The position numbers were made by a program, and so were the translations under genes. A stretch of 64,000 nt of DNA from assembly GCA_963971425.1 (NCBI GenBank), contig OZ020523.1, forward strand, positions 12,334,867 through 12,398,866, in the 5' to 3' direction. A model generated the notes under the pieces. It was not told the DNA's origin and made no database searches. It saw only the letters and a program-made list of their open reading frames with translations. Shown one piece after another: positions 163 through 63,712 of this stretch. Position 1 is the first letter of the stretch; every line of letters begins with the position of its first letter. The DNA comes from Bryoerythrophyllum caledonicum. Lineage: Eukaryota > Streptophyta > Bryopsida > Pottiales > Pottiaceae.

Positions 163-332
163 ATGATGGCAATTTCAGATGAAATTCGTGCTCGCATCAT
201 AGGTTTGAGTGAGGGAGGATTTAGAGGAGTTCAAATTGCTGCTACTATTGGAGTTCCTATTAGAACAGTTACAAGGTTAGTAAAAACATTTAGAGAAGAT
301 GGAACCTACAAGCGCAAACCTTGCGGTGGAAG
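163..332 (+). pseudogene. Tc1/mariner-like transposase, N-terminal half (split gene)
   Basis: This is the first part of a Tc1/mariner-type transposase, a nuclear enzyme that cuts and pastes its own element. The translation from the ATG at 163 (MAISDEIRARIIGLSEGG...) is the paired-type helix-turn-helix that binds the element's ends: IIGLSEGGFRGVQIAATIGV followed by VPIRTVTRLVKTFREDG. The reading frame is intact up to KRKPCGG, where the MULE starts at 333. It resumes with GGGSHAKKLSDRDVRS at 13187, so one gene was split by the MULE. Family assignment rests on both halves together. No function is expected in this state. Confidence 0.85.
323..332. repeat. Target-site duplication of the MULE, left copy
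   Basis: GCGGTGGAAG at 323-332 is repeated exactly at 13187-13196, directly outside the two inverted ends of the element. A 10-bp duplication fits the 9-11 bp made by Mutator-like transposases. The bases 5' of the duplication differ (T on the left, G on the right), which fixes its length at 9-10 bp. Confidence 0.9.
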
Positions 333-382
333 CAGCGACGCTATCTTGTGAGCGGTGAGCAGCGAGCGGTGAGCGGTGAGCA
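333..382. repeat. MULE terminal inverted repeat, left
   Basis: The left end reads CAGCGACGCTATCTTGTGAG and the right end in reverse complement reads CAGGATTGCTATCTTGTGAG; 16 bp from GCTATCTTGTGAGCGG are identical. The next ~27 bp are 6-7 bp direct repeats of the type GAGCGG/GAGCA in both ends, with different order and number. Confidence 0.88.
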
Positions 383-1154
383 TAAAAAATCCTGAAATCT
401 GGATTTTTTTGGTCATTTTTTTGGGGAAAAAGTGAAATTAGTGATTTTTTCAGCAGATCATCCCATTTTGGTGACATATTTTCCATAAATTTCTAATTTT
501 AGAAACTACCCTATAGCCGTGGTGTACTGCGAAATTGCATGTTTTTTTCTTTATTTCGGTTTTTTAGAGTCCCCTGTTTTAGTTGAAAGGTGTGTCATAA
601 TTTTTTCCCATGAAGCTCCTACAATTTGTAAAGTGCCATATTGGAATGAAAAGCACATATTTACTTAGGTATAGGGTTTACGCATTGTGGTAGAATATCA
701 TACGAAGCGGACAATTTTTGACCGTACTTGCTAATTTATAATAATATTGATCTTCAGAATCAACGGGAATCACCTAGGTATTAAGTGGATATTTCACTGG
801 TATTAAATCGGTACCAAATTCGAATTACATGAGAGGGAAAATGTTTACTACGAAATGCACGAAAGTCACCTTTGCCTTCCATGCATATCATTCGCACAAA
901 TCGCCAGGACAATTCCCAGAATATTGGCATAGGCGATTTCTAATGACTTATGTATAAAATCGTCACCTTAAACCATAGAACACGCTAAGTACAGGATTCT
1001 ATTGCTCAGAATAATATAACGGAATATAATAACATATTAAACTAATTCATGACCATCAGCTACAGTCATGTAATCAGGTACGGACCGAGGATGTATAGAT
1101 GACGACCTCTTGAGCATTCAAGAGATATTAATAATTCTGGTTGCGACGCCTTCC
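383..1154. other. MULE subterminal region, no gene
   Basis: AT-rich DNA between the left end and the 3' end of the transposase gene. I see no coding region. Near 772-822 an ACCTAGGTATT...GGATAT...GGTATTA pattern resembles, in the same orientation, 12786-12835 near the other end. This may be a shared subterminal motif. Confidence 0.4.
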
Positions 1155-4100
1155 TCACGCTCGTTTAGTGATGTTAGCAAGCTCGAGAATGCGCATAACT
1201 TCGTTAAAGCTGTAGCTTGGAGCATGCATGAACAGGTCCTCTTTGTAATCCATCTTACATAGATAACGTAAGACGTAATATACATGCTTGCAATACTTCC
1301 ATTGCCCCTTCTTTCCCAACGCTTCGGATTGCATCTTCAAAAAATCTGGACATGAACATCCTGGGAGGTCTGTAAACGTGACGCAATAAGACTTGTCCTT
1401 CCCCGTGTCAAGAGTGATAACGCATCCCCATCCCGGATACGGTATGGCTAACAGATTCGAGACGTAGCAGTTATTCATAAGAGCTGCGCTTGACCACTTG
1501 TTACGTTGGTCAATTGTGGGAGCATCTGTTGTCCTACGAATTGCGTAGCCATTCCGAAAGCTGTGGTGAGAATTCGGATTTGCTGGAATGGGGAAGTGAG
1601 ATCGCGGAAGCGGCATGTCCATAGACACTTGGAATTGTCGTCGTGGTGAAAGAGCCCCACGCTGTTGCAATTGGAAACCTGCTTCCTCCAATGCTAAAAC
1701 CTCATGCACAGCCAAATTGGTGCCAAGTTTCACAGGCCACGATATTGGAACTGATGGCCAATCCATCACAAACGCTTTCTTCGACCCCTTTACACAGCGG
1801 CCTACATCATCTGGACAAAACCAGAACTCCGCAGTAACATTACGGGGTGATCTGTAATCCTTCTTCATATCCGAATAGGTGGGGGCAGGAGTTCCATGAC
1901 TTCCACATGAAACTTTGGTGTTGCAAGGCTCACCACTGTCAGCCTGCAATGCTTGGCATTTTCGAGCTGACTTTTTGGGGAGCCGAGCAATGTGCCACTT
2001 AGACGGATCACAGTCTGATTTGAGAACGGAGGTTGTATGTTGGACACCAGAGTCCTGTCCTCCAAGGGCGTCTTCGATGCGAGCCCGAGTCACCCTTTTA
2101 CCATCACGGGGAATTGAATAGTTCACCGTATCGGACCTGTGCGAATCGTGGGACGACCCGGGTGGCATGTCAAGCTTGCGCTTCGTGGATCCAAAAACCT
2201 CCGCACCTTCTAAGCCGCATGTCCTAGTTAGTAAGTCCTCAGCTCCGGGGAAGTTCCTAACAGCATCAGCTATGAGTTTAGGATCACCCAAACGTTGTGC
2301 GGAACGCAACCGAAGCGTACCTTTGTCCGGACCTTTTCCCGACGCACCGCCCTTCAACCATGCTCGATACGAAGAAATCTGCATAAAAGCACGGATGAGG
2401 TCGTCTACGGTTGCTGCGTATAGACACGTCATTGTGTTTCCGGATTGTTGGAGCCAACGATTGTGGACTGTTTCGGCAAGGTTACAGGAAGGCATGTCAG
2501 CCCTCTCGTCAAGCGTGAGATCCTGAGGAAAAACAACATTTTTCAATGAATAGGAGCTGATAACACTGAAGAATCTATTGGAATGTCAACAATATAAAGC
2601 CTGAAATACACTTACAAGCTGCATTGCGCCGCCCCATTGTCGATAACGGAAGTGCCAAAATGCCATCCAATCCTCGAGAGAACGACGTCCGATTTCGGTA
2701 GTGGCACCAGAGGACAACCACCACGCTCGAATGACGTTGTACTGAGCTTCAGCCTCGTCATGGGTCTTCGCATTTTTCCAGATTTTGCATAGGGCAATGT
2801 GTTGCTCTTGGAAGCCTGGAAGAATACTTCTAGAGGTAGCACGCTGAAGACACTTTGTCCAATGGAATAAGCATGTTCATTCCCTATTATCCATGGGCTT
2901 GTCCTTGTCGCCGCTGCCATAAACTCGTCGAACGGCATGCCAATTCGCACCAGCACTGTCAGCCATGAAGCCTTTGAAGTTCACATCTTCTAGGCCATGT
3001 TGTCTCATTGTATCATTTAGATTCTCCCAGAACAACTGCTGTGCTTGAGCATCCTCGGATTGCATATCGCACATGACGATTGTCATTACCTTACAGTACT
3101 TGCTGTCGTACACATGACATGCCATGGTAGTCCAATCCTTGACCCGTTTGACATGATCAAACATCAACCAACAATCTTCAAGGTCATTTCCGGGTTGCAT
3201 ACGCCTAACGAGGTCTACCCCACTTCCACATTGGTCGACAGACATTTTGAAAAGGAATACTTTACCTTGAGACTGGCCGGGAAACTTGTTTTCGTGAATG
3301 AACACGAATTTCGACGACTCTTTCAGCTCCATGATGTTGTCCATTACACCCTTCCCACCACTGTAGAACCTCTTGCACGTGGACACTAGATTCCTTATAT
3401 TCGGAGACGAAAGGGTCTCGAATTGATCGAGGACAGCATCCAAAGATGCTTCTTCAAGGTTGGGCAAGTTAGACTGTGGACGGATCAGGTAGTCGGAGAG
3501 GAAATTCTTGCTCGCGGCCATGACAATTGCAGAATTAGTAGCCTTGGGCGTACGTTGGACTTCTTTTGCTACGCAATCGTGCATGACGTCCATGGCATCT
3601 TGATCTACACCTTTCGAGATAGGATGAAGATGATGACCTAAATGAATTGCAGCGCGCGTCCGATCGTGATCGATAGATGTCACGTAGTATATACGTGCAT
3701 CACAAAGAGCAAGACAAATTGGAGGGGTTTGGCAAACCTTACATGAGAGCGTAGATTTCTCGGATGGTGCTCCCTTCACTGAAAATGGAGTGAACGCGAA
3801 CCCGCTCCACTCGGTCTGATTTGAGCACCCACCGTTTCGTGACTGATAATCACAACTGATGTTAGGGCACTGTAGATGCCCCGTACATACAGATTTTCGA
3901 TACGTCAGACCAAAATCGTTCTTGATATTTGTAGTCATTGTCTTGCACCACGTGTGACCATCGTGCTGTTTACTCATTCCATCTAGGCCCCCTCCGTACT
4001 GTGTAGGAATACCCTCTGGGAGCGGTGGAAGTTCAAATACCACGTCCCCATTATACTTTGGAGGCAAATACTTAACATGTTTCAAATCGAAACTATCGAT

Positions 4101-4718
4101 ATCAATTCTAGACAACTCAGACCTGGACCCTTTCCTATTACAGGTATGCCGTACATGAATTAGTATGCTCCTGACGTTGCGCGAGCCAGGATAAACGAGG
4201 GGCTTACCTGAGGAATAAGACGGAGACGCTTGAGCATATGATGGAACCAGTTTAGTATTAGTACGAGTACCTAATTCATGAGCTGAGGTCCATGGGATCT
4301 TTGACTCTGCAAGGTTCACATCAGATAGTTCATCTTCCTCTGTATCGCTAAGGACATGGACGCTTGGGTTAGACCTAGTGCCTAAACCGGGCACGAGTAC
4401 GGTATCACCAGAATCGGTCGGAGGAGTCATGACGGCTACGGACGCATGAGCGGCGAATTGAACATCTGTAACACCAAATACTTTGAATGAACCACGACAC
4501 AAGCTCCAAAAAAATCCTCCAATGTCACTGTCTTTCACTTGATAAATGGACTGCTCATGAATACCTTTGCTATCATAGACCTCTTGTTCAATGTGGACTG
4601 TGCCAGCCCGATAACCAAAACGAACACATAGCATTGACTCGGAGATACTGACTGTGCCATTGTCGCCAATGGGCACGACAAGTGGAGCACCGCCTTGATG
4701 AGAAGTAAGAGACGCCAT
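1155..4718 (-). CDS. MULE transposase with SWIM zinc finger (one in-frame stop)
   Basis: Transposase of the Mutator-like element; it would bind and cut the inverted ends in the nucleus. Two exons: 4718-2616 and 2522-1155, joined in phase 0 (donor GTAAG, acceptor CCTCAG), about 1,156 codons. The ATG at 4718 (MASLTSHQGG) is the first real start. In order I see an acidic linker (~residues 125-140), a zinc-knuckle region with spaced Cys ending GHHLHP (~300-390, like the WRKY/GCM-type fold of MULEs), the DDE core (VFIHENKFPGQ..., WLMFDHVKRVKDWTTM, NFKGFMADSAGANWHAV), a Trp-rich stretch (RAWWLSSG, ~680), and near the C-terminus a SWIM finger CxC...CxH (GCSCPDF...YCKHVYYVL). A TGA at 2877-2879 follows DNRE and interrupts exon 1; the same frame continues with TCLFHWTKC, so it is probably a CGA-to-TGA change. 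The catalytic residues are inferred from position. Confidence 0.82.
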
Positions 4719-5393
4719 GCACAACGACTATCAGAGGCGGTGTTAAAGGAGGGTGGGGTGCAATGACAACTGAATTGCGAAAGAGAGTAAGAACTAGCTT
4801 GCTGTGCTTGTTCAAATACTGAACTGGTAAAGAATTGATTACGGAGAGAATATATTTTCTTATATATAGCAACATACGTGGAAATCTATAAATTACGAAT
4901 GAGTGAAATTACGGCGGAAATACTTAAATCTATAGAGAGTGCTTCCATTCTAGCCTGTTGGTGGCTTGAGTGTACAATGACACTAGTTTATCTTCCAGAT
5001 TAAATTGGATTAAGAAAGGAGTGAGCTGGAATACCGATTACCAATTTTGTTAATTGTCTTGTTGTAGTTACATAATGAATACAACTTTAGATTTTCCGGA
5101 TCGTATATTTCCAAACATGAAGATGCTTAACAATAATTGTGCCCCGTAATTGACAGATGGATCAGCGGATTATATTGGAGAGCTATTGTAGGGCTTTGCG
5201 ACAGCGTGTAACAAACTAGATCTGAGAAGAGCTTAATATTAAATAGTAGATCTTTGGTGTAAACGGAAGCAAGATTGAGTAGAAGAGGGGCTCTATCACC
5301 GCAACGCAGGAGTATTGCACTGAGTTGTTTGGATGCATAGGGAGGCTCAGATGTTAAAAGAGAGTGCGGATGAGTGGTTTGGCTATCTTGTAG
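4719..5393. promoter_or_regulatory. Divergent promoter region between transposase and cargo gene
   Basis: About 675 bp separate the two start codons, which face away from each other. No other gene fits here. TATATATA at 4861-4868 lies about 140 bp upstream of the transposase ATG on its strand and is a plausible TATA box. On the other strand only a weak TATTAAATA lies near 5236, about 155 bp before the cargo ATG. Joint regulation of both genes is an inference from the arrangement. Confidence 0.45.
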
Positions 5394-8300
5394 ATGATGA
5401 CTAAGATAGGTGGCCGGAAGAAGCGAAGTACCAATTTCTCCAATCCGAAGCAGACGCGGGCTCGAAAGGATCGGCGCAGACAACAGTCATTGTTGGCTGC
5501 TCAGAACCTGGAAGTCGATACATCGGAATCGGGCGAACGTTTTCGGGCTTTGTCAAGTATCCACCACGGACCGCAGCCAGTCCAATCACAGATTCAGGTA
5601 TGTTTAAATATTCAATATATTTAGATCATTTTATGTGGCTGAATAGAAGAGAGTCCAATGGTTCATCTGATTCTGGCATCCTGTATTGATAATCAGGAGT
5701 CTTGCACAATCGTAAGTATTCATGAGCATTTTGAAGAGGCAAACACTATAGAAGGAAACTCCAGGAAAATGTATCAAAGATCTAGTACCAGTGAGACCTC
5801 GTTACAAGTGGATAAAGGTTCTGAAGACAGTGAAGGCCATTCTGACTGCCAAAATAGTGACTCAAGCGAAGAAAACGGGAGGCTGAGAAATCAATCACGA
5901 CCCACACTGGTCGGAGACGGTTCCTCATCAAAGGCATCCGGCAAAGGAGTAACGTCTCATCGAAGAAGCGTTGAGGACCTCGCGGACAAATTGTTGGAAC
6001 TTCAAAGGGACCCACTAAATCAGGTATGTCACAATTAGATAAATTTTCGATCAATCAGTTCCCGTTCTTGTACCTGTTCTAAGACCACGAGTGACTCTTA
6101 TCGTCGTGGTTCAGTTTAGTCAATGAGCTACCGACCTGTTATAGAGCTCCCGAGAATCAGTGCATTAATGACATACGTCACATATTTGGTTTCAGAACCT
6201 TACATATTCGATATTGGGCTCCCAAAAAGGCCATACTGCCTCCGATAATTAGGGTTTAGGATTAATGTGGGGCCCGTTGGTTCGTCTCATCGGTCGGTAG
6301 TCACTCATCTGCAGACGGCTCACGTTGCAACCTCGAGCAGGGTTCAGGATCTCCTTCTTCATCCGGGTTCGGTTCTTCAAGCATTCGAGAACTTCTCATG
6401 TTTTCACACCTGCTTCTCGGGAGATGTTCACTGAAATTTTGTTAGTCTTCATGGCGGAGTTGCTGAATGTAGTGAAAATCTCTGTCCTTGCAGGTTGCGT
6501 GCGCGGGGAGTAAGCGGCGGAGTTTGGTGGCAGCAGATTCGGAGCTGGAGAAAATGGCAGGACTTCAAGTACGTCTTCTTCACATCTCCGTGTTCCGTAT
6601 TTGCCATTCCTTGTAATTTGGTTGATCTCGGAGAATTCGTTAGGGTTTTGGTGCGCTTTTCCTGTGGTGTTGCACGGGCACGAAGAGAGAGTGTCGGTCA
6701 GAGGATGGGAAGTGCAGGATGGGCGCGACGTGAGAGTGTGCGTTGTGAGGTCCAGCGAATAAATTCCAAAGACTGTGTGTTTCGTTGAGGTCTTGGCTGT
6801 GGGGGTACGGGGTTGAATTCGTTTCCAGCTCTGCCTTGAGCGCAAGAAAGGATGTTAGTCTTGCTGTCAAGAGTGCGCGCGCGATGGACCTTAGCCAGCA
6901 GGGGAGGGAATCATGATATGTAACGAAAATCAGTGACCCCTAAAAATGGCTTTCGGATCCGAAAGCCATTTTCAGGGGGCACTGATTTTCGTAACATTTT
7001 GAGATTCCTGCCCCTGCTGGCTAAGTTCTTCGACGCGCGTGATTATCTTTCATTCCTGTGGTGGTGACGATCATAAGATCGTGTTCATGAGTTCGGTAAT
7101 TCATGCGTCGGTGAACCCAGTCTATGAGCTCAAATCATGCATACTGAGAGGAAGTGAGAGTGGGGTGAGTGGGTGGGAGGGTGATGGGTGGGTGAGGGAA
7201 GGGTGGGGAGTGTGGGTGCGAGGCTGGGATGTGTGGGTGGGGCTCGACGTGGGAGTGTGCGAGGGGTGGTCCAGGGAAAATATTCTCTAGTCTGACCTTG
7301 TTGTTGATCTCAAGGCCGGGGGGGTTAGGGTAAGATATTGTATTGAGCTCTGCCTCGTGTGCGTGCATGAACGGTAATCTTGTCGTTGCTCGTGCGCGCG
7401 CGATGGACCTTAGCCAGCAGGGGAGGGAATCATGAATTTTTACGAAAATCAGTGAGCCCTGAAAATGGCTTTCGGATCCGAAAGCCATTTTCAGGGGTCA
7501 CTGATTTTCGTAAAAATTTGAGAATCCTATCCCTGCTGGCTAAGGTCTTTGACTCGCATGGATATCTTTCATTCCTGTGGTGATCACGATCACAGGATCG
7601 GTTTCATGGATTCCGAAATTATTGCATCAGTGTTCGAGGTCTATAAGCTCATATCATGCATACAGGAGAGGGAGTGAGGGTGAGGAGAGTAGGTGGGAGG
7701 GTGATGAGTGAGTGAGGGAAGGGTGGGGAGTGTGGGTGCAAGGCTGGGATGTGTGGGTGGGGCTCGACGTGGGAGTGTGCGAGGGGTGGTCCAGGGAAAA
7801 CATTCTCTAGTCTTTGAGTGTTGTTGATCTCAAGGCCGGGGGGGGTAGGGGTAAGAGACTGTATTGAGCTCTGCCTTGTGTGCATGCATTTATGCTAGAT
7901 TCGTCGTTGCTCGTGCGCGCGCGATGGACCTTAGCCAGCAGGGGAGGGAATCTTGAATTTTTACGAAAATCAGTGACCCCTGAAAATGGCTTTCGGATCC
8001 GAAAGCCATTTTCAGGGGTCACTGATTTTCGTAAAAATTCAAGATTCCCTCCCCTGCTGGCTAAAGTCGTCGACGCGCGTGCATATCATTCTATCATTTG
8101 ATGGTCACGAACATGAGATCATTCTTATGTTCATGGATTCGATAATTCTTGCGTCGATGATCCAGAACTATGAGCTGGGAACGTGCAGCTTGTCGTGAGA
8201 GTGAGAGTGCGGATTGTGGGTGGGAGGCTGGGGTGTGTAGGCGGGGTGGGGAGTGGGTGTGGGATGGATGGTGAGGTCTAGGCTGGGGTGTGGATGGGTC

Positions 8301-11300
8301 ATTGGTTCGTTTCGTACCGAGCTATTTCATGACCATGGTTTGCCATACAAGTAGCAATTCATGCGGTAGAATTAAGTTGACTGGTCTGGTCTAGATATAT
8401 ATCTAGATTCATTTCAAGTATATGTGACAGGTGGATGCAGTTTGTTGCTTGGATTTCTTATGCATACTTATTGCAGGTTGAGAGTTTGGGACCCACAGCT
8501 TCTTCTTCGCGTGAGGATCTTGAGATTCTAGAGGACGAAGAACGCGTTGGTGAACTTGTTGATGAGCATGGGCTGGCTCCAACACTTCAATCTTTGCGGA
8601 GGTCCATCCGTGGGACCTCATACGACATCCTACAGAGCAGCATTTGCTCTTTCGGTGGTGATCTCCCAATTCCTCTCTGCCGAATGGTGCCCATGACTGA
8701 GGTGAGGTTACCTCTTAGAAGTGATGTCGAGAAGTTGAAGGGGGAGTTCGTCAATGGGTATCGGCCTGGTTCTGCTTGTTTTTATGTGTCGGTGAGGAGT
8801 TTCTCCCTTGTCGAGAAGCGGGTGCAACCAGTAGACAGGTCATCATGGTCAGAGCTTTGGATTGAAGAGGACCGGAAGTTCGAGGAGCTGTTGAAGACTC
8901 GACCGGAGTACTCGGCGTTTTCAGAGAAATTCTTCTTCGTGTGGGATGGCAATCATCGCCATATGGCTTGGACAGAGGTGATATCCCAACTGCACCCATC
9001 CGATGTCAGCTTTCATGTGCCCGTTAGAGCCGTGGTGATTGAGCCAACTATCGAGAACCGACACATCTTGCTCAACGTGATGACCGACTTGAACAGGTGC
9101 ACACGAATTTAGATACTCCTGGCATTCGTTTGTTTCAGCTGCTTTCACCATTGTACTTCATTTTTTGACATTGAAATTCTCTTTTGTCGAAGGCAAAAAG
9201 AATCAGACCACGTTGTGCAACACCTCACTCACGATCTAAAGCGTGTTCAGCATTTCGGGCTCTTAGAGTTTGAGCAATTAAAGGGGCTCATCAGCGATGA
9301 TGATTACGAACTGAGTGTCCTTGAGTGGTCAAAGAAGGGACAACGAAAGTGGTATCATATGACTCTCGAAGCATTTGTGAAGCTCATGTTTGAGGTACGT
9401 TATGATTATGATGAACATGTAGCTCTTGCCATTACTCTCCCTTCAATATTCTAGTTCAGAATATTGATACTGATCACGACCTTATGTTGTCCACAGCGGG
9501 ACCTGATTGCTGTTCAAGAGGAGCAGATCCAAAAGTTTAAGGATACCTTGGTCACGGGTGTCAGTGAGGATCGGCGTGGAAGTGCTGCAGAGTTGGTGAG
9601 CCGCTGCACTGAGGCTGTACAAAAGAAGAAGACGACTTGTCAGACCATGCTCACTCGGTTGTTGGCAATTGCCAACCCGGCAAACGGGGAGGATTTCTTC
9701 AAGGAGGTAGGGTATATGTATATACTCGATTCCTATCGATATCGAATTTTTAACTTCTGACCTTGTAGAGTCCACTCTAATTATTGATATTGGAGTATAG
9801 GTGAATCGGCACTATGATGTTTATCAGGTGCGGCCCGAGATGACTCCCGAAAAACTCCAGCTCATCGCTACAGCTAGGGTAGCTGCGAAGTTCAAGACGC
9901 GCTGGTGCAGGTGGTGGAACATGAGCAAGGGCAGTAGGATGGAGTATAACTTCCCCGCATCGCCCGCGTCTGACAAGGTTCTTCGAGGCTGGATTGACAA
10001 GGCAGCGTTCTAGGCTGGGGTAATGTTTAATTTTTCTTGATATTCTCATTATTTCCGAATGTTATCTTTATCATCAATTCTTAACTATGTGGATTTCGTT
10101 TCACAGCTAGAAGAAGAGTCTGAGAAACTCTACGCAAAGATTCTTCTTGAGGACAACATTGTCCTCCAGACTACCGGGCTTCCAAATCCCGTTCCTGCCA
10201 TTGGGAAATGGATTGAGGCAAAGAGCATGACGTTGTGGACAAAGGTGTTCTGTACTCTCATCGGCAAGGGGGGCTCCTACACGAAGGGCGAGGAGTTTAT
10301 GGCGCAAGACGGATGCGAGAAGGCTCTGAAGCGAGCTGTGATGCGATATTTTTGGAGGGTGCTCGTGGCACAGGGATCCTTGTTGCCCGGAGATCTACCC
10401 ACCCGTTTCACAAAGTGGATAGATACTTCTGCACCAGAGTGTATCTTCACAGATTCACAGAGGCGTCGGTTCTTTGTTCACCACCTCCTCCAATGCCCGT
10501 GGTACTTGGAGATGCGTGAGGTGGATCCCACACCTGGAGACGAGGTCCAGCTTCGAGTGGCATGCGAGTCCATGGCGGTGCCTCCTGTGGTTGGCAGCGT
10601 CCTTCCCTTGTTGGCGGCTCTGTTGGCAGCGTCTGAGGAGCAATCCGAGAAGGCCAAAGCCAAGGCTGCCGAGAAAGCCGCTAAGGCAGTAATCAAGGAA
10701 CAAGAGAGGGAGGCTGCAAGGCTGGAGAAGGAGAGTTCGAAGAAGGAGAAGAAAGAGACGAAGGAGAGGTACAAGGAGTTCGCGGCGTTGGTGGCGAAGG
10801 AAGGTCCCCAGAAGCTGTTTACTCAATTGGGGGGATTGGGGGGATTCGCAGTCCCTCCTGCGGTGACTTTGACGATGGGCGTTTCACCCTCAGCTAGCAG
10901 CCGACCTTCTACCTTTGATGTGAAGCCCTCTCAGACGGTGTATTCGATACCATTATTTGATCTTCCTCAGTCTTCTGCTGCTGTGAAGGTGATGTGTGAG
11001 AGTGCCCTCTCCATTATGTCTCAATTTGACAGCGTCGTTGTGGAGGATGACGAACCAGAGGCCTGGAAGGAGCTTCGCAAGTTTTTGAAGGAGCACTCGG
11101 GCTCACGGCATCGGCGACATGAGGATCTGGATTGTGCTCTAGGTTTGGCGGATATGGTACTCTTGGACGTACCAGAGGATTTACTGGTCCCCGACATTGA
11201 TGGCGGCATCGACGTACCAAATTGGAACAAGCTTCCAACCCGATTATCAGACGGAGGGAAGAAAGAATCCCATTGGATTTACCGGGCATTTGAGATAGTT

Positions 11301-12408
11301 GGGGCGTTGCTTCGTGACGGGGCGCCGCTTATCGTGTTCTACCCGGATTCGAAGTTCATCTCCAATGAACTTTCAGCCTGGGCCGATTGGGCAGGATTTG
11401 TCGAGGAGACAAAGTGGTTTGCCATCAACGGGCTACCACTTTTCCGCGATGGCCACCCTGGGCGCACTCACAAGTGCTTTCTTGTGAAGTGCTTCGTGAG
11501 GAAACTGGATCCCGCGGTTCCTTTCTCATTCTTTGATAGGATGGAGCTGCAAAGAGACGGGATTCATCTGTCTTCAGATAGTCACATGACCAATCTCATT
11601 ACTCATGAGACGTTGACTATGAGGGCCGATAGCGACGTACCATGGCGTGGTGCTCGCGAAAAGTCTACGAACCTCATGGAGGCTCTGATTGATCTCTGCA
11701 CACAGCACGAGGACATTGTCTTGGATCTCACAGCATCTACAGGTTAGTTCATTCCATTACAAAATTCTTTAGTTTTACCTTCGTATCATAGCTAACATCG
11801 TATGATTTGTTTTTTTGAATGAAGGGGCGTCTATTAAAGCCTGCAAGGCGCTAAAGCGGCACATTTTGGCACTGGAGGAGGACCGAGAGTTGGTGGATGA
11901 AGTCCTTCTTCCTTTGGTCCCGAACATTGTTGAGGTCGAGTCAGCACCGCCACCGGTGGTGGCAGAGGGCTCTCGCAAGCGCCCCTTGGAGGTTGATGAC
12001 GACGAGCCAGAGGTGAAGACCGTCCCCAAGAGACGTTGTGAGTAAGTCCTACCCTGATTCGGTTCTAGTTTTGGAATGCGGTTTTAGTTCTAGCTTGTCT
12101 CAAGCTTAAATTCTTAACGAGACTTTAATTTGTGCAGTCGGCCTTCGTCGTTGATGGCATCATTGTCAAGGACTCATGTTGGAGTGCTGTCTCCATTATT
12201 ATTGGAGGTGAAGAGCCCCACACGACGATTCCATTTGAATCCCTGGGATGCCCAGGTTGCAGACGCCATGGCCGCACAACATTCCCCTCCACGTCTTCAA
12301 ACGGTAGTCTCACGTAGAGTTACTACATGTCCGTTCATAGATGGGGAGGCTTACGTTAGTGGCTCGGAGCGTAGTGATAGTTTTTCTGACGATAGTGATT
12401 CCAGCTGA
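5394..12408 (+). CDS. ParB-like domain / DNA methyltransferase-like fusion protein, MULE cargo
   Basis: My exon model: 5394-5597, 5697-6023, 6494-6568, 8477-9096, 9193-9394, 9497-9706, 9801-10019, 10107-11742, 11825-12041, 12138-12408. All junctions are GT-AG and keep one frame, about 1,326 residues. The start ATG follows a stop and opens with a basic, NLS-like stretch (GGRKKR...RARKDRRRQQ). Then come a Ser/Glu-rich linker, a ParB/sulfiredoxin-like domain (~265-410) with WDGNHRHMAW matching the GxHRxxA signature, a Lys/Glu-rich coiled coil (~800-855), and a C-terminal N4/N6 methyltransferase-like fold: motif IV as LADMVLLDVPEDLL (~965), then VLDLTASTG...RHILALEED (~1160) as motif I. The order IV before I fits beta-class enzymes. 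The catalytic DPPY-type motif reads DVPE, so activity is doubtful. An in-frame TAG (10011-10013) lies in exon 7; a donor at 9978 would skip it in phase. The tail is acidic. The DNA-modification role is inferred. Confidence 0.72.
6872..7041. repeat. Palindrome 1 centred on GGATCC
   Basis: Two arms of ~80 bp mirror each other around GGATCC at 6955-6960. The arms share TTAGCCAGCAGGGG and ACGAAAATCAGTG with few mismatches and run out into CGCGCG sequence. A transcript of this intron would form a long hairpin. Confidence 0.9.
7392..7561. repeat. Palindrome 2 centred on GGATCC
   Basis: Same structure as the first, with centre GGATCC at 7474-7479, 519 bp after the first centre. The arms are almost perfectly complementary over ~75 bp. 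Confidence 0.9.
7912..8083. repeat. Palindrome 3 centred on GGATCC
   Basis: The centre is at 7995-8000, 521 bp after the second. This copy has the best arm match, from TTAGCCAGCAGGGGAGGGAA to its mirror at ~8035-8065. Confidence 0.92.
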
Positions 12409-13136
12409 CTTTTCGCGGAGGAATCTTGATTCCATTGCATTGGTTTATTGCTTTGTTTACCATCACACTACCAGCTGGTTGTCTTCAATATTGTCCCATC
12501 GTGAATCATCTTCATTCCTGTCAAAATCCCTTTCTTTTCACGTATGTCTTACATAAAACATCGTACGGCATGCTTCGATATTAAAAGATATCGTTCTATC
12601 TACGATTTAAAACTTGATTCATAATAAAAAAAACCTTTGTAACTTGGTTACATGTCCTCTAAGTTTATAGGCTTTGTATCTTAGGCATTGCTCTTTTTTA
12701 AACAACCGTTCGCTAAGAATTAGATTGTTTCAATTTAGAGTGGTTCGGACCCAACGGGTATCTCCATGGTATCTATTTTTTTCCACCTAGGTATTTCATG
12801 GATATCACCAAGGTATTATAAGGGTATGAACTAAGTATCACATGGATACTGCCTGCCACCCTAAACAATATTACTTCAATTTTTTCTGCTGTATTTCATA
12901 TTCTATTGACTTGTCGCGGTACCCTGAAATCTAAATCCTCACCCATAAGCGTCCCTTCCAATGAGGTGAGAATTGTTGCAATCAATCCTAAAAAACTCAT
13001 ACTTCCATACGTCCAAGTACATTGTCGTCGAAAATTTCAGTTTTTTTTTCATATGTCAACACAGTTTTAATAGAACCCGCGGCCATAGGCGACCCTTTCC
13101 AAATTCTTCAAAAAACAGTACCAAATAAATTGCAAA
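12409..13136. other. MULE right subterminal region, no gene
   Basis: AT-rich 3' flank of the cargo gene. No coding region is seen. A run of GGTAT/GGATAT motifs at ~12755-12860 resembles one near 775-820 at the other end. Confidence 0.4.
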
Positions 13137-13186
13137 AAATCAGTGCTCACCGCTCGCCGCTCGCCGCTCACAAGATAGCAATCCTG
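13137..13186. repeat. MULE terminal inverted repeat, right
   Basis: Mirror of 333-382. The end reads CTCACAAGATAGCAATCCTG in plus orientation, preceded by CGCTCGCCGCTCGCCG repeats, and is followed directly by the second GCGGTGGAAG copy. Confidence 0.88.
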
Positions 13187-14037
13187 GCGGTGGAAGTCAC
13201 GCTAAAAAGCTTAGTGATAGAGATGTTCGTAGTATTGTGCATTACTCAAAAATTCATCGTTGTTCTTCACTCTCAGAGATTACCAATGCATGTCCTACTC
13301 AAGTGTGTAGACGTACTATTCAAAAGGTCTTACATAAAAATGGCATTTTTAGTTGAATTGCAGTCAAAAAACCTTTTTTGACACCTCGTCACATGTCTCA
13401 ACGATTAGCTTTTGCTCAGAAGTACCGTGGATGGAGTGCAAAAGAGTGGGAGCGTGTTGTTTGAACAGATGAATCTACTTTTGAAATTGGAAAAAATTCT
13501 CGGCAAATTCATGTTTGGAGAAGTGCATACGAGCGTTATTCATCAAATTGTCTAGCTCCTACTTTTAAAAGTGGAAGGACTTCTTTAATGATTTGGGGTG
13601 CATTTGCCGGAGGACAAAAGTCAGAACTTGTCTTTATGCCTAAAGGTCAACGTTCTGCTAAGGATTTTATAGAAGTGGTTTACGATGCCAAATTGGTTCA
13701 TTTCATGGGTCAAATTCCACAAGGAGTGCTTATGGAAGATGGGGCACCCGTCCATAGGAGCAAAACATGTGAAGAATGGAGACAAAGCCACCTTCTCGAA
13801 AAGCTCAACTGGCCTGCAAACTCTCCCGATCTCAATCCAATCGAGAACGTTTGGAGGATGTTAAAAGATGTTGTGCAACATGGCAAACAATGCCCTAGAA
13901 GCTTAGATGTGTTGAAGGTAGTTCTTGAAAGAGAGTGGAAGTTAGTCAATGGTACAAAGCTCCTTCAACTATGTCATTCTATGCCCTCTAGGTTACTAGC
14001 AGTGATTGACGCTAATGGAGGACATACACGTTGGTAG
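13187..14037 (+). pseudogene. Tc1-like (DD34E) transposase, C-terminal half (split and decayed)
   Basis: Continuation of the transposase begun at 163. The frame from GGGSHAKKLSDRDVRSIVHYSK carries the rest of the DNA-binding part, then the catalytic triad: D in TDESTFEIG (~13468), D in MEDGAPVHRS (~13738) and E in SPDLNPIENVWRMLK (~13843). Exactly 34 residues lie between the second D and the E, which is the Tc1-type DD34E spacing, not the DD39D usual for plant mariners. Two in-frame TGA codons interrupt it, one after NGIFS (~13355; CGA-like) and one before TDES (~13461; TGG-like). The last codons (GGHTRW, stop at 14037) run into a tandem repeat. The gene is dead both by these stops and by the MULE insertion. 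Confidence 0.87.
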
Positions 14038-17866: not shown

Positions 17867-20800
17867 ATGGTTAGCGTTATGAAGTTCTGGAAGAGGAAGA
17901 GGCGGGCAGATTCAGGAGCGGATGGCGACGAGGAGGAGGAGGAGTCGCGTGTCGTCCAGTGCAATCAACCTGATCACGGCGCCTTCGGGTATGCACCTGT
18001 TGGTTTTTGGGAGTGGGATGCCCCACATTCGGGTTTTTGGTGTTGAGAGGTTGTTGTTTTCGTTGCGGTGCAGGTTTGCTGGGAACAGCGTGTCGACGAG
18101 GAAGTACTCATGGTGGAGCTTCGTGCCGCTGGCGCTGTTCGAGCAGTACCGGAGAGCGGCCTACTGGTACTTCACCGCCATGGCGGCGCTCTCGTTGGCG
18201 CCGTTCGCGCCCTACAGCCCCGTGAGTGTGTGGGTGCCGTTCCTCTTCGTGCTCCTCCTGGGCCTGCTGCGGGAGGCCTGGGAGGACGTGCGGCGCGGCA
18301 GGGGCGACAGGGAGCTCAACAACCGCCCCATCGACGTCCACGACGGGAGCGGACGCTTCGTGGAGAAGAAGTGGAAGGACGTGCTCGTGGGAGAGCTCGT
18401 GAAAGTGAAGGACGGGGATTATTTCCCCGCGGATCTGCTGCTCGTCTCGTCCACCGGGCCGGACGGGATCTGCTACGTCGAAACTATGAACTTGGACGGG
18501 GAGACCAACTTGAAGGTAAATCTCGACGTCATCAAATTCTCGACGCAATGAGCTCTAGGGGGGATATCTGAATGCGAGTGACACTGCAGGTGCGGCAAGC
18601 GTTGGAGGCGACGTGGGGCGTGGAGAGCAAGCTGCGTGACTTCAGAGCGGAGTTGCTGTGCGAGGGTCCGAATGCGTCCTTGTACACATTCTCGGGGCGG
18701 TTGAAAGTTGGGGAAAGCGAGCTCCCAGTGGGGCCTCCGCAGCTGCTGCTCCGCGACTCCAGCCTGCAGAATACGGGGAGCATCTTGGGCGTGGTGGTGT
18801 ACACAGGGCACGAGACGAAGTCGATGATGAACGCCACGCCGCCGCCGTCGAAGCGGAGCCGGGTGGACAAGTCGCTCGACCGAGTGATCTGGCTCATGTT
18901 CTTCCTGTTGCTGGGGATGGCGCTCCTCACGGCGCTGATTCTCGCGATCCGGTCCACTGCGCAGGGGACCAATCTGTGGTACCTGCGCCCCACGGAGTCG
19001 AACCCGTACTATAATCCCAACCGCGCTGTGGTGATGGGGATCGTCGGGTTCTTCAACGGGCTGGTGCTCTACGGGTACCTCATCCCTATCGCGCTCTACG
19101 TCTCCCTGGAGATCGTCCGCGTCGCGCAGGCCATCTTCATGGTGCACGACGCGAAGATGTACGACCCGGCGTCGGACAAGCGCGTCAGGGTGAAATCTCC
19201 GGGGCTGAACGAGGAACTGGGGCAGGTGGACACCATCTTCTCGGATAAGACGGGCACTCTCACTAGCAACCAGATGGACTTCTTCCGGTGCACCATCCGG
19301 GGCGTCATGTACGGGAAAGGCACCACGGAGGTCGAGAGGGCGGCTCAGAAGCTGGGCTTGCCCATGGGACAGTCTCTACCAGAGCCAACCCCGGAAAACA
19401 ACCCGTTCAAAGAGAAGGGGTTCAACTTCTACGACGAGCGTCTCCTGGGAGGAAAGTGGGTCGAGGAGAAGAACGCTGAAGCGATCCGGTTCTTCTTTAA
19501 CATTCTCGCGCTCTGCCATACAGCCATCCCGGAGGGCTCCTCTGAGGATCCTTCCACAATGCGCTACAGAGCCGAGTCGCCGGACGAAGCGGCTCTCGTT
19601 GTCGCGGCCAAGCAGTTCGGGTTCTTCTTCTACAAGAAGACCCCGACGTCGTTGTACGTGAGAGAGGGGAGCCAGAACCTCTCTTACGAGCTCCTGGACG
19701 TGCTGGAGTTTTCCAGCCTTCGGAAACGCATGTCGGTCATTGTCCGCTTTCCGGACGGCCGCTTGCTGCTCCTCTCCAAAGGCGCAGACTCCGTGATTTT
19801 CCAGCGCGTTGATAAGAAGAGGAGCGGGCCAGTTGCAGAGACCGCCAGACACTTGCGGCAATTCGGCGAGGTCGGGCTTCGCACCCTGGTGGTGGCGTAC
19901 AAGGAGCTTGACGAAGGCGAGTATCAGAACTGGCACGCACGCCACGCCGAGGCGCGCTCCATCATCGGGAAGGAGCGGGAGCTCCGTACCGAGGAGCTCG
20001 CTGAGGAGATCGAACAGGGCCTCACTGTCGTCGGCGGCACTGGCGTCGAAGATAAGCTCCAAGTCGGTGTCCCCGAGGCCGTCGATCGCCTCGCTCAGGC
20101 CGGGATCAACATCTGGGTCTTGACTGGCGACAAGGTCGAAACCGCCATCAACATTGGCTACGCTTGCAGGTACAATTCTGAAGTTACCGGTAGTCGTAGC
20201 ATGGTTCTGACTAGAGTAACGTTACTTGTATCCTAATCTTCAAGTCGTGCAGTTTGATAAGGCAGGGGATGGACAAGCTCATTGTGAGTCTGGAGGGTCC
20301 AGAAGCGCGAGCGATTGACGAGCGAGCTGAGAGGGAGAGCTGGTCACGTGATAGAATCACTGAGAAACAAAAGGAGTTCGTTGCGAAGAAGCTGTTGGAC
20401 GCTCTGGAGCTCGTGTTGGGAGGGCACGTCAACCCGCGAGGAACGAGCACCAGTTCGCGACAGAGCAGTTACTCGGAGAGCATGCAAAGTGCACTCTCCC
20501 GCAGCCTGAGCAGGAGTTTGTCGCGCAGCCTGAGCAACACCAGCGCCGGCGGCCGCCACTCGCGTACCCCGAGCGGTGGCGGACAGAAGTCTATATTTGA
20601 GATGCTACCGCTGGTGGATGGCCAGAAAGTGGGCGTGAACGGGGAAGGACTGGATCAAAGAGAGAATCTATTCAACAGGGACAGTAGTGCTGCATTGTCA
20701 CGCGGGTCGAGACGGAAACCGCCCGCTGAGCCCACTGAGTACGCGCTGGTGATAGATGGACACTCACTTGCGTTCGTCCTTGCCGAAGAAGAGCTGCAGG

Positions 20801-22148
20801 AACGCTTCTTGCAAGTCTGCATCAATTGCTCCTCCGTTCTTTGTTGTCGCGTGTCGCCCCGTCAAAAAGCCCAGGTCACCACTCTCGTCAGGAAAGGCCT
20901 TGGTCAGAACCGCCTCTGCTTGGCCATTGGCGACGGTGCCAACGACGTGGGCATGATCCAAGCCGCCAACGTCGGCGTCGGCATTCTCGGCGTGGAAGGA
21001 GCTCAGGTATGTACAACATCATCCTCCAACTTCATAATCTCAAATCCTTCTTGCATCATCAGGAAAAGCCCTGCCACCAATGAAGTTGATACCAGTTTCA
21101 TATAAACTTTCCACACAATGAGCCTCATATTAGGTGAAGTTACTATTTCCCAACACTGCTTTCCACAATGTAAAATCTCATATGCTGAATTTCGTTCTGA
21201 TTTACGTACTCTGAGTGAGGTACCTGAAAGCTTGTGATGTAATGTGCAGGCAGCAATGGCAGCTGATTTTGCCGTTGGACAATTCCGGTTTCTGGAGCGC
21301 TTACTACTTGTACATGGAAGGTGGTGTTACCGACGGATTTCTCTCATGGTACAGTAATGCCAAGCTTCTCTCTTCAGTTGTGGAGCGTTTCTTCAGAAAG
21401 AGCACTGATACGTGGTTGCTGTGGTGGACAGATCCTCTTCTTTTTCTACAAAGTGTGCATCATGGGATGGATCTCGTTCTACTCCAACATATTCGCCTAC
21501 TTCTCAGGGAACCCGCTCTACAACGACTGGTACGCGTCGTTTTACAACACGGTGTTCACAGCGCTGCCGATCATCGTGATCGGTGTGCTGGACCAGGACG
21601 TGACCCCCGCGGAGGCGTTCCGGTACCCGCAGCTCTACCGCTCCGGGCAGCGTGGGGAGCTTTTCAACACGAGGTTGATAATCTGGTGGCTGGCGAACTC
21701 ACTCTACTCCTCTGCAGTCATCTTCTTCTTCCCGCTCCTCATCTACTCGGGGCAGAGCGCGTTCCGACCTGGGGGGCAAGTGGCCGCAGCGCAGGAGTTC
21801 GGAGCGGCCATGTTCACGGTGCTCGTCCTGGTGCCCAACCTGCAGATCTACTCGGCGTTTCATTACTTCACGTGGATTCACCATGTCGCCATCTGGGCGA
21901 GCATTTTGAGCTGGTACCTGTTCATCGTGGTCTACGGGGCGTTGCCGGTTTCGTTTGCGGGGACTGCGTACAGGGAGTTCGTGGAAGCGCTGGCGCCCTC
22001 CGCGACGTACTGGTTGATGCAGCCGCTTGTGGTCATGGCAGCGTTGCTGCCGGACCTTGTGCTCCGCAGCTTCAAATGGTTTTACCTCCCATCAGATTAC
22101 CAAATTGTGATAGAGAAGCATAAGTCTGATCCTCTACATGAGGCTTAG
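17867..22148 (+). CDS. P4-type ATPase (aminophospholipid flippase, ALA family)
   Basis: Flips phospholipids from the outer to the cytosolic leaflet of membranes, normally with a CDC50/ALIS partner. Six exons: 17867-17988, 18074-18515, 18590-20169, 20253-21006, 21250-21348, 21432-22148; all joins keep frame and give 1,237 residues, within the plant ALA size range. Seen in order: an acidic N-terminus ([17 protein letters not shown]), TM1-2 after [13 protein letters not shown], the actuator loop DGET (NLDGETNLK, ~180-188), TM3-4 with PIALYVSLE, the phosphorylated Asp in SDKTGTLT (D407), nucleotide-binding motifs ([28 protein letters not shown]), GDGANDVGM (~941), then TM5-10. A Ser-rich insert with SRSL repeats (~775-815) precedes [10 protein letters not shown] and may be regulatory. 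Coding DNA is GC-rich against AT-rich flanks. The start is the ATG at 17867; no stop interrupts the model. I see no reason to call it a pseudogene. Confidence 0.93.
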
Positions 22149-31017: not shown

Positions 31018-34000
31018 TAGGGTCTGCACTGTTGCAGTGAGGGTTGCGCAACGTGATCGGTGCTGTTGCGCGGTGGGCTGTGTGTTGGTACGTGATTCGG
31101 GGCTAGCATTCGCGTGTCGTTGCCTTGCACAAGCGCCGAGGTGCGTCTACAGTTCGCGTCGCCATCTGCAGTGCGGTGCCGGCCGAGTTTCTGTTGACCT
31201 GTTCAGAGCGCGTCGCTTTTAAGAGGAGCTTGCGGTTCGCGTGTTTCTAGAGGAGTTTTTCGCAGTGCATGTGCTCTGCAGTGCAGGGGGAGAGGCTCTG
31301 TGGCGGACGGTTTGGAGGGAGAGTTCAGCATGGAGATCGATTCTGTTGCGCGGTTCGTTGCATGCTGGTTCGTGATTCGGTGCTGGCAATCGCGTCTTGT
31401 TGCGTAGCGGGCGAGCTGTTGCTTCGGTGCAGTGCACTGCTGACGGATCTGTACAAAGCGTGTCACGGCTTGTCGCTTAAGGGGTAGAGTGTTTTTGCAG
31501 GAGAGTTTATTTCAGAGCGTACTCTTCGACGAGCAAAGGAAAGAGGCTCCTTGGCGCAGGGTTTGGAGTGACAGTTTCGCAACGAGATCGGTTTGATTTG
31601 GAGGCGGCAGTCGCGCCTCGTTGCCTTGCTTGAGCGGCGAGGTCCTTCCTCTGGGGAAGCGTTTCCATCTACAGTCCGGGGTTTTTGGGGCCGTTGAGAG
31701 CGGGTCGCCTCCTGTCAGTTGAGAGGAGCTCGAGGGTTGCGTTTCCCTGCAGGGATATTTTCAGTGTGAGCGTGAGCAGTGGGCTCTGCGTGGAGGACTC
31801 GAGCGTTCGCTAGCGGTTTACCTCCGCCCTTCTGTTGGAGTTGGCGGAGTGTTTGGACGTTGTTTTGGTTAGGATTTGGTGAGGAGCGCTTCCCCTTCGT
31901 CGCTACTTTTGCTTGTGGATTCGTTGATGTGGAAGTGTGCCGATCGTGGAGTAGAGTATCTGTGTCGATGTGGAGGGTTGTGCCCTGGATTTTGTCACGA
32001 TTTTGAGAGCAGCATCCATCCTTAGTTTCCTCTGTGGCCAAAATTAGGCGTGATTTGTGTCGATTCTCTTCTGGGTTTGATGGAATCGGTGCTCTATCTA
32101 CTCACACATTGGAACTTGTGGTTGCGCTTGCAGACATAAGTGAATACCTGTGTTGGCTTTGCTGCAGTGGATTGGAAGCTTGATTGGGCTGGTGTTTGGG
32201 TGGGATGGATGCATCTGAGGCCGGAGGAGCAGCATTGAGGCCGGAGGAGCAGCAGGTCACTTCCTCTGGTTTGGCGTATGTGACAGCAACTCATATCGAG
32301 CTTTCCAAGCGTCACTGGAGCGAGCTCCCGGAGTCCATGGGTGATGGCATCTCTCGTGAAGAGGCGGCTAAGGCAAAGCTCGATAATGTGGAAGCGTTTA
32401 AGATATGGGAATCACATCCGGAGTGGCGGGACTTCTTCAGGACATTTGGTTACTCTTTAGGAAAATGGGAAAGTGATGGGTCATTGGAGGTGGGTGAGAA
32501 GTGTGCAGAGGGTGCACAAGCCGAGCTTTTTCATGTCCGTGTCAAGTGGAGCAATGAAAAGAAGAATGAAAGGGACTTGAAGAGTGGACATGAGTATGTT
32601 TTGAAGGTCTTCAAGGAGGGGACCTTGGTGCGGGATTTGCAAGTCCAGTGGCCTGAGGGGTTGTTTCGATATAGAGATGAGAATTGGAAACTTTATGAGC
32701 TTGGGAAACCTCCAAGGGAGAGGCTCATTTGTGAAGTAAGGTGTGCAACTTTGTTGGAGGATGGGAGGTTTGCCTTCTTGATGACAAAGGAAGATGGAGA
32801 TTTGCGGAGTTTCATTGATCGTAAAATGGCTAAAAGTGATCATGGTTGTGGGCCATTTTCAAAAGAGGTTGGTGCGGAGATCATGTATCGTGTGGCAGAG
32901 GGGATGGATTGTCTGCATAGTTACAACATTGTCCATAGGGACCTCAAGTCGTCAAATGTCCTTGTGAGGACATCTCCAAGTGGGAAGTGGCTATATTGCT
33001 TTGTAGCAGACTTTGAGTCTTCTATTGGGGTGGTAGGAACAGGATTTTGGAGGGCTCCGGAAATCCTACAAGCTTGTAAGGAAAGAAATGTATGGAAGAG
33101 ACTAGAGTTGTTTACAAAGGAGGCTGACAGCTACAGCTATGGTATGACGTGCTACGAAGTATTGACTGGGAGGATGCCTTTTCAAGATCATCCCTTGAGT
33201 AACCAACCATCTTTATTGACGGATCTTGTGATTAACCAACACCTTCGGCCAAAGATGCCTGATTGTGTCGAGGATTGGGCACGGGAACTTCTACATTGGT
33301 GTTGGAAATCCAATTCTGGCAATAGACCATCATTTAAAGAGATATTGGGCTTTCTTGAAGCAAATTCAAATTCAGAATTTATTCGGGCCAAAGTGTCATA
33401 GGGTGAGGAATAGATGTGGGGACCTTGAGGAGTGAGGTCCATATGAAATGTAGTATGAATCCTCTTTTGAACTTTTCCAACATTGCAAAGGAGGTATGCA
33501 ATGATTATGAGTAGGTTGATTTGCATTGAGCTCTAGGTCCTCGCTTTCTTTGGGCTTAGTACATGTTTACATTGTGATAGAATCCAACTAAGAGGGGGCA
33601 TTTTGATTGGTTTTTGGCCTTAGTGGAATGGATATCTTCCTGTGAATTGGTACATTTTTGCAATTCGTGTGTGTCTTCAAGTTGGCAATATGTCTTGTTG
33701 TAGTAGTTTCTTTTGGTGATCAAAGCATCTATAGCAGGTGAGAACCAATGGTGCCTAGTGGTGGTGAGCCTCCAACAGAATGTGAGATATTATGCAATGT
33801 GCATGTTCACATGGAAAATGGTCTTCTTACATGGTATGTAAGTGTGGAATCAAAGATAGCCAAGGTTGAAGTATTGTACCCCTCTTTTTATCTGTATCAG
33901 TGCCTCTTTCTCGATAGCCCATGATGAATGGAAGAGTTAAACTAGAATCCTTGAAATAGGTACAGAAGAGCTTGGTGGTATCTCAAATGGACTTAGAAGT

Positions 34001-63021: not shown

Positions 63022-63712
63022 GAGCATCTTCACCCCGCACCACAAACCACCAAACTGGCGGTGCGGGGTGGTTGAATGCCCACACCACATGCCCCAAAAC
63101 GGGGCATCGGTGCGGGACTTTCCCGTTGTAATGAGCCCCCAACGCGGAACTGGGGTTGGGCACCCAACTCCCCGGGGTTTGCAATTCCGGCTCCCCCACT
63201 CCCCGCATGCCACGTGGCATGCGGGGAGTGGAGCGGTCCGAATTTAAAATTTTAAAATTTTAATTTTTGAAATAAAAATTTAATTTTTGAAATAAAAATT
63301 TAATTTTTGAAATAAAAATTTAATTTTTGAAATAAAAATTTAATTTTTGAAATAAAAATTTAATTTTTGAAATAAAAATTTAATTTTTGAAATAAAAATT
63401 TAATTTTTGAAATAAAAATTTAATTTTTGAAATAAAAATTTAATTTTTGAAATAAAAATTTAATTTTTGAAATAAAAATTTAATTTTTGAAATAAAAATT
63501 TATTTTTTTTAATTTATTTTTTTAATTTATTTTTTTAAAATTAATTTTTTATTTTAAAAAATTAATTTTTTTTTTTTTTTTTAAAGCTGCCGGCCAGCTG
63601 CATCTCCACCTCCAGGTGCGGGGAGGGGAGGATAACTCCTCCCCGTCTACCTTGGCCTACACCAAAATCTCCCTCTGGCGTGGGAGTTTACCCGCTAGGG
63701 GTGGAGATGCTC
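63022..63712. mobile_element. Harbinger-like MITE, 691 bp, nested in the piggyBac relic
   Basis: The ends GAGCATCTTCACCCC and the mirror GGGGTGGAGATGCTC lie between TTA at 63019-63021 and TTA at 63713-63715; TTA duplications and GAGCATCT-type ends are typical of the PIF/Harbinger group. Removing it brings LMGI and KQLSTIRDYW of the piggyBac protein next to each other. The interior holds a satellite (63261-63500) and no gene. Confidence 0.88.
63261..63500. repeat. 20-bp satellite, 12 perfect units
   Basis: TAATTTTTGAAATAAAAATT is repeated 12 times without a visible change, inside the Harbinger-like MITE. T/A runs follow up to ~63580. Confidence 0.97.

Follow-up and report, generated by a model that had tools for sequence, protein, structure and literature searches.

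The window analysed here is a 64,000-nt stretch of contig OZ020523.1 from Bryoerythrophyllum caledonicum, and it contains a 12,854-bp transposon copy carrying two divergently transcribed genes. One encodes a transposase that is plausibly of the type found in Mutator-like elements (MULEs). The other, which we call the cargo, has ten exons and encodes a protein predicted to join a ParB-CTPase-type domain to a domain derived from N6/N4-methyltransferases. An array of palindromes lies between cargo exons 3 and 4. All coordinates are collected in Table 1.

There are clear borders to the element. The two 40-nt arms, at 340-379 and 13140-13179, match with 90% complementarity and are enclosed by a perfect 10-bp duplication of the target, GCGGTGGAAG, within the 8-11 bp range of MULEs. 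The 16-mer end motif GCTATCTTGTGAGCGG is perfect in both arms and has only these two sites in the window when up to three mismatches are allowed; two matches were reached in 2 of 100 shuffles. Between motif and duplication lie 7 nt on each side, CAGCGAC on the left and AATCCTG on the right (CAGGATT when read inward). The 10-mer GCGGTGGAAG occurs once more on the + strand, at 4022 within the transposase gene, and this we take as a chance match. The single insertion unit of the initial annotation is thus borne out by its borders, arms and duplication. When the flanks are joined in silico, one frame runs across the insertion site for 116 amino acids, followed without a change of frame by a DDE_3 stretch (PF13358, 1.1e-15). 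The resumption of the target frame therefore stands, but the target is not an ordinary host gene. It is a Tc1/mariner-type transposase, and since its frame is broken by stops we regard it as an old transposon. Tc1-like elements have been reported in moss and in some angiosperms (PMC4054914, in part).

The two transposase exons join into 1,156 residues, with one in-frame TGA in the window copy. At E <= 10 Pfam gave no MULE or Mutator-type transposase domain for this protein. The Transposase_mut profile matched the core of homologue P0030 below threshold (E 0.02; 14.2 bits, cut-off 21), did not match the core of a second homologue, and appeared in 2 of 28 members of the transposase alignment A4 (best E 0.034). 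The SWIM profile reached 9.2 bits against a cut-off of 19.6 (E 1.2), and a D..D..CxxH pattern is recognised by eye alone. A SWIM zinc finger is frequent in MULEs, though not universal. A PDB sequence search with the transposase returned nothing (best E 0.2), and a pattern-based search of viral contigs with its profile found no relative. We use the label MULE-like because of the length of the target duplication, the structure of the ends and the motif pattern. The earlier designation as a SWIM-type MULE is plausible, but its support from profiles is weak.

In the cargo gene we set the end of exon 9 at 12041, moving that junction by one base, and the ten exons then form a frame of 1,326 codons; the divergent pair of genes is otherwise as first annotated. 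A structure model of the ParB exon, exon 4, places it in the ParB-CTPase fold, with weaker matches of lower Z to sulfiredoxin, serine kinases and SbnI. The fold is assigned by the model alone, and Pfam run on 23 members of the ParB-exon family gave scattered weak rows and no ParB family. By eye, the Box II GxxR motif takes the form GxHR in 19 of 22 alignment A2 rows with residues at that place (one further row is gapped). The N6/N4-methyltransferase family PF01555 matches the joined exon part at residues 174-228 with 31.6 bits (cut-off 26.7), and all six members of alignment A6 at E <= 5 (best E 1.3e-7); exon 8 alone gives 13.1 bits, below the cut-off. A CcrM model matches with an E of 2e-5, yet far under that model's own cut-off. 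The methyltransferase part finds DpnA in a PDB sequence search (E 3e-4), where the exon-8 profile finds nothing (best E 0.15). The description of the cargo as of bacterial type is supported by modelled fold and sequence family. Pattern-based searches of viral contigs with the exon 8 and ParB-exon profiles gave no relative, and PHROGs nothing convincing, the best row (E 0.0031, homologue P0029) being a family of unknown function. The protein is probably nuclear.

We searched the assembly (437,360,962 bp, 894 contigs) for further copies. At up to two mismatches the end motif occurs 1182 times forward and 1184 times in reverse, compared with 45 and 44 for a reversed-pattern control. Our pair counts rest on the first 100 end-motif places, every one of them on contig 1 or 2 and free of mismatches; among these listed matches there are at least 16 neighbouring +/- pairs spaced by 6-26 kb, and at least five by about 0.2 kb. 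Ten long pairs (e1-e10, 6.7-15 kb) and one short pair were read. Every long pair encloses stretches of cargo and divergent transposase, whole or in pieces, those of e1 (L011), e4 (L016-L017) and e10 (L028-L029) being decayed or partial. Outside the CAG ends we find target duplications by eye: exact 10-mers in e1, e2, e6, e7 and e9, nine of ten bases in e3, e4 and e5, and 9 bp in e8. The composite e10 has two transposases and no target duplication. The cargo thus sits between such ends and duplications of 9-10 bp in nine of the ten long pairs. Copies e6 and e7 occupy different sites and have 52 differences in 14,963 gap-free positions; the transposon family is recently mobile.

Two further observations concern these pairs. 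In e1, e4 and e10 the transposase stretches on the cargo side are mostly 27-60% identical, rising to 74-87% at the C-terminal end, and lie beside cargo remnants, which suggests a related second lineage between ends of the same type, or composite elements. The short pairs, with ends roughly 0.2 kb apart (L030 at G000:C1:5081748-5081950 plus four others), are probably miniature elements, like miniature inverted-repeat transposable elements, moved by the same transposase; L030, the short pair read, has no coding match, and the script found no duplication there.

A genome search with cargo exon 8, in which 77 of 3710 candidates were scored, gave at least 78 matches. This number counts the window, and its last two entries belong to a single copy; leaving the window aside, identities are 70-99%. 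The corresponding search with the transposase frame (71 of 2915 candidates scored) gave at least 72, again including the window. A divergent transposase match lies within 13 kb upstream of the cargo for 40 of the 78 matches and for 28 of the 30 best (the exceptions rank 19th and 23rd). Within the same distance none of the 78 has a transposase upstream on the same strand, or downstream on either strand. Twenty-nine of the 30 best cargo matches, the window, e3, e6, e7 and e9 among them, reach the same inverted end (at most one mismatch in the 16-mer), each with a different flank. The 38 unpaired matches, 36 of them ranking 32nd or lower, may include cargo copies outside elements. The placement of the cargo within one element is supported and strengthened by these results: it belongs to the regular equipment of a multicopy element. 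The alternative of a host gene between two short elements is rejected on the basis of the sampled end pairs (10 of 10) and the pairing of cargo with transposase.

The frames have been read closely in five copies (the window, e3, e6, e7 and e9), and both are open in e7 only. The 1156-residue transposase frame is open to its final stop in e3, e6 and e7, and e9 has one stop. The TGA and TAG of the window copy, like the palindrome array at 6887-8088, go beyond what the initial annotation contained. Both nonsense codons are of the C-to-T type, one in a CG context and one in a CAG context on the opposite strand; these two sites are as would be expected from deamination of methylated cytosine in a silenced plant transposon.

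The cargo is also present in a second species. Two loci, L001 (CADCWO010000058.1) and L002 (CADCWO010000134.1), lie in a metagenome-assembled genome labelled Synechococcales cyanobacterium. A bacterial origin of these contigs is ruled out because both loci keep the cargo introns, and we take them as eukaryotic contamination. The same record contains an open-frame transposase (G001 contig 80, L061), 77% and 87% identical to the window exons, so that transposase and cargo co-occur in the genome record of the second species. No inverted end of the window type was found on the contigs of this record with cargo or transposase. Between the window and L001, over 1023 codons of exons 4-9, amino acid identity is 0.67, the nonsynonymous rate dN is 0.23 and the synonymous rate dS about 2 (saturated); between L001 and L002 (762 codons) dN is 0.027 and dS 0.326. 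Comparing the window with e2, e8 and e6 gives dN/dS of 0.12, 0.15 and 0.17 for the cargo and of 0.07, 0.14 and 0.23 for the transposase, with dS saturated for e2 and e8. By these ratios both genes are under purifying selection, and the cargo has been kept as a protein.

The array in the window comprises three near-perfect palindromes of 142-182 nt, with arms of 71-91 nt, each containing a 20-bp dyad (GGCTTTCGGATCCGAAAGCC in palindrome 1). The close copies have two palindromes (e1), six (e9) or seven (e3, e6 and e7), spaced by about 520 bp. Directly upstream of exon 4, L001 carries a set of four related palindromic repeats, and the exact core is present in three. Alignment of the array region between the window and L001 scores 65, compared with a maximum of 30 in 100 shuffles, and 21 once the window palindromes are removed; the scores for six other introns fall inside their shuffled ranges. 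In e2, e5, e8 and e10 a scan that left out AT-rich palindromes detected none with arms of at least 18 nt, and e2, e8 and e10 have weaker inverted repeats of 59-89%. Every one of the ten copies has between 2 and 7 occurrences of the core TCGGATCCGA (shuffled mean 0.008 per element, five copies shuffled), and in the 64-kb window this core is confined to the array.

The dyads are conserved and change on both sides. Forty-seven of 57 motifs are perfect 20-bp dyads, whose flanks vary symmetrically by subfamily: GGCTT-/-AAGCC in 32, GTCCC-/-GGGAC in 8, GACCC-/-GGGTC in 5 and GGGTC-/-GACCC in 2. Of the imperfect motifs, five belong to e2 and have the flanks GACCC-/-GGGTA; in the other five, one or two pairs are mismatched. 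Counting outward from the centre, pairs 6-10 show complementarity in 55, 57, 54, 57 and 52 of the 57. Covariation of this kind is compatible with recognition of the site by a symmetric dimer, and also with a short hairpin. Like VANDAL elements with VANC, the family has element-specific motif arrays in non-coding DNA (57 motifs; ten copies, window and L001). Elsewhere in the window, a G+C-rich palindrome at 63191-63236 (23-nt arms, 3 mismatches) is unlike these dyads.

Table 1. Features of the transposon copy and its target site (window positions).
Feature	Position	Strand	Remarks
Whole transposon copy	333..13186	.	12,854 bp; inverted ends and 10-bp target duplication
Target duplication GCGGTGGAAG, left copy	323..332	.	
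Target duplication GCGGTGGAAG, right copy	13187..13196	.	
Left terminal inverted repeat	333..379	+	outer CAG, then GCTATCTTGTGAGCGG; GAGCGG-type subrepeats
Right terminal inverted repeat	13140..13186	-	
Decayed target gene (Tc1/mariner-type transposase), 5' part	164..332	+	
Target, 3' part of same gene	13197..14037	+	DDE_3; stops present
Transposase exon 1	2616..4718	-	ATG at 4718; 58 homologues of frame at E <= 0.001
Transposase exon 2	1155..2522	-	C-terminal CxC...CxH (SWIM-like) stretch and stop
In-frame TGA in transposase, window copy	2877..2879	-	homologues covering site (alignment A4) read through
Cargo exon 1	5394..5597	+	found in 8/10 sampled copies, 43-99% identity
Cargo exon 2	5697..6023	+	found in 4/10 sampled copies, 87-99%
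Cargo exon 3	6494..6568	+	found in 4/10 sampled copies, 76-96%
Palindrome 1	6887..7028	.	arm 71 nt; 20-bp dyad GGCTTTCGGATCCGAAAGCC at 6948-6967
Palindrome 2	7402..7551	.	arm 75 nt; 20-bp dyad at 7467-7486
Palindrome 3	7907..8088	.	arm 91 nt; 20-bp dyad at 7988-8007
Cargo exon 4	8477..9096	+	ParB-CTPase-fold domain (modelled); Box II-like WDGNHRHMAW
Cargo exon 5	9193..9394	+	
Cargo exon 6	9497..9706	+	
Cargo exon 7	9801..10019	+	in-frame TAG at 10011-10013 in window copy; tryptophan codon in L001, L002
Cargo exon 8	10107..11742	+	charged coiled-coil-like stretch; first part of methyltransferase-type domain (DVPE motif)
Cargo exon 9	11825..12041	+	S-adenosylmethionine-motif continuation (TASTGAS..., LALEED); basic stretch SRKRPLEV...PKRRC
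Cargo exon 10	12138..12408	+	stop included

How might these parts work together? The element encodes a divergent transposase and a predicted ParB-CTPase-type domain joined to an N6/N4-methyltransferase-derived one, and the tandem 20-bp dyads between cargo exons 3 and 4 are predicted sites for a ParB-like symmetric dimer. The protein would load onto the element's own DNA at the dyads and act there in cis, so that the element stays expressed and mobile, much as VANC does on VANDAL arrays. We consider the case for a MULE-like two-protein family working in this VANC manner to be evenly poised. In anatomy the element corresponds, by analogy, to a VANC-type system whose protein is of ParB type. Binding of the dyads, a nucleotide switch, and anti-silencing or help in transposition are inferred, and the conserved site array makes the anti-silencing role more plausible. 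A more specific version, which we put forward tentatively and hold to be somewhat less probable, is a parS/ParB-like system in a eukaryotic transposon: a nucleotide-switched clamp with a repurposed methyltransferase domain would load at the intron dyads, spread, and block silencing or drive transposition, with protein and sites coevolving.

Several observations weigh against such a role. Each gene of the window copy is interrupted by a nonsense codon, and the autonomous system suggested earlier does not hold for this copy. The catalytic motif expected of the methyltransferase, [DNS]PP[YFW] (partly after PMC8885841), is absent: D[VIM]PE, at what its position suggests is motif IV, stands in all ten rows of alignment A5. 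Base modification is doubtful because this motif is not DPPY, and so is the earlier suggestion of a DNA-modifying cargo. No helix-turn-helix or dimerisation domain was identified in the cargo protein, whose middle part lies outside the structure model. Symmetry of the motifs drops beyond pair 10, with pairs 11-15 complementary in 40, 40, 34, 46 and 41 of 57. A single fixed 20-mer accounts for 32 of the 57, all in the six closest copies, and the independent evidence of covariation thus comes from the four perfect dyads found among ten different 20-mers. The specificity of the array is that seen in the 64-kb window, the ten sampled copies and L001. In the species of L001 the cargo and transposase lie on separate contigs. 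Finally, the array could instead serve the transposase or be a source of hairpin RNA.

The main rival to anti-silencing is a role in transposition itself. The cargo would be a second transposition protein, helping to select targets, to pair the ends or to reintegrate the element, as has been suggested for MURB, the dyads would be where it loads to assemble the transposition complex, and silencing would not be involved. Cargo, transposase and array do occur together in the ten copies read and both genes are under purifying selection; MuDR, too, has a two-gene layout in which one protein is apparently needed for integration (PMC6446971, in part). The dyads, however, are placed well within the element rather than at its ends: close to the inverted ends of the ten copies TCGGATCCGA was not found. 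We judge this explanation unlikely, while giving it more weight than the alternatives that follow.

If instead the palindromes act as RNA, their transcripts would form long hairpins from which small RNAs arise, controlling the element or competing copies, and the function of the ParB-like protein would be a separate matter. The window palindromes are near-perfect, intronic by the gene model and strongly folded as RNA (-110 to -146 kcal/mol for stretches of 153-164 nt), long palindromes are found in L001 as well, and weaker inverted repeats are left in e2, e8 and e10. Yet the diverged subfamilies e2, e5, e8 and e10 keep the 20-bp dyad, with two-sided changes, although the scan, which left out AT-rich palindromes, detected no arm of 18 nt or more in them, and Rfam gave no match at the gathering threshold; the explanation seems to us improbable. 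That the cargo is a captured passenger of no benefit to the element is disfavoured and barely credible. Pickup of host genes is frequent in MULEs (PMC6446971, in part), but this cargo is full-length with its exon structure kept, its dN/dS is about 0.1-0.17 across subfamilies, and it accompanies the transposase in a second species. No cargo copy was shown outside an element, though 38 of the 78 matches could not be placed.

Elsewhere in the window there are P-type ATPase gene frames (Cation_ATPase, 17883-22148), flippase-like by eye. Two similar kinase-like frames, again by eye, stand in tandem about 7 kb apart (32184-33401 and 39452-40633).

The VANC-like reading would link two fields, bacterial partition and CTP-switch proteins on the one hand and the anti-silencing of plant transposons on the other. 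Should the ParB-like protein load on the dyads, it would be a transposon-encoded, sequence-specific clamp working on eukaryotic chromatin, and the subfamilies would offer natural pairs of protein and site variants usable for specificity swaps. VANC-like self-targeting would also have been reached by a second, independent route. Among the best-ranked matches of a literature search we found no Mutator-like element with a ParB-type protein. The parS sites of ParB proteins are palindromic.

Among known systems, the Arabidopsis VANDAL elements are also DNA transposons with an additional gene, and in both cases the gene product could act on the DNA of the element that encodes it. VANC proteins act on tandem motif arrays that lie in non-coding regions of the elements encoding them, introns of the accessory genes included, and the arrays diverge together within the family (PMC5735166, in part); the dyads here are similarly intronic. 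In contrast, VANC is not described as a ParB or methyltransferase protein in the portion of that paper used, whereas the cargo combines a modelled ParB fold with N6_N4_Mtase; the VANC motif is a 9-base site in one orientation rather than a 20-bp dyad; and loss of methylation has been demonstrated for VANC, whereas the present element is known from sequence alone. Fusions of the same two domain types are enriched in phages and prophages, and so share a link to mobile elements, with ParB proteins loading at parS (PMC12704722, in part). That paper gives sulfiredoxin as the commonest eukaryotic form, and its main text has no words beginning "transpos" or "plant". The cargo differs from the phage fusions in its introns, its residence in a eukaryotic DNA transposon, its long middle part and its altered catalytic motif. 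Like Pack-MULEs, the element is MULE-like with non-transposase coding sequence. Unlike them it is not confined to gene fragments without a transposase gene: it encodes its own transposase and carries an entire gene under selection, and both genes are present, whole or in pieces, in the window and all ten sampled copies. Other additional domains, SET and OTU among them, appear in a published table of MULE groups, and "methyltransferase" is not in the main text of that paper (PMC6446971, in part). A bacterial-type amino-methyltransferase domain in a eukaryote is shared with N4CMT of bdelloid rotifers and the N4-methylcytosine methyltransferase of Marchantia; the rotifer enzyme has an active SPPY and that of Marchantia acts genome-wide (PMC8885841, in part), whereas the domain described here is borne by a transposon and carries D[VIM]PE.

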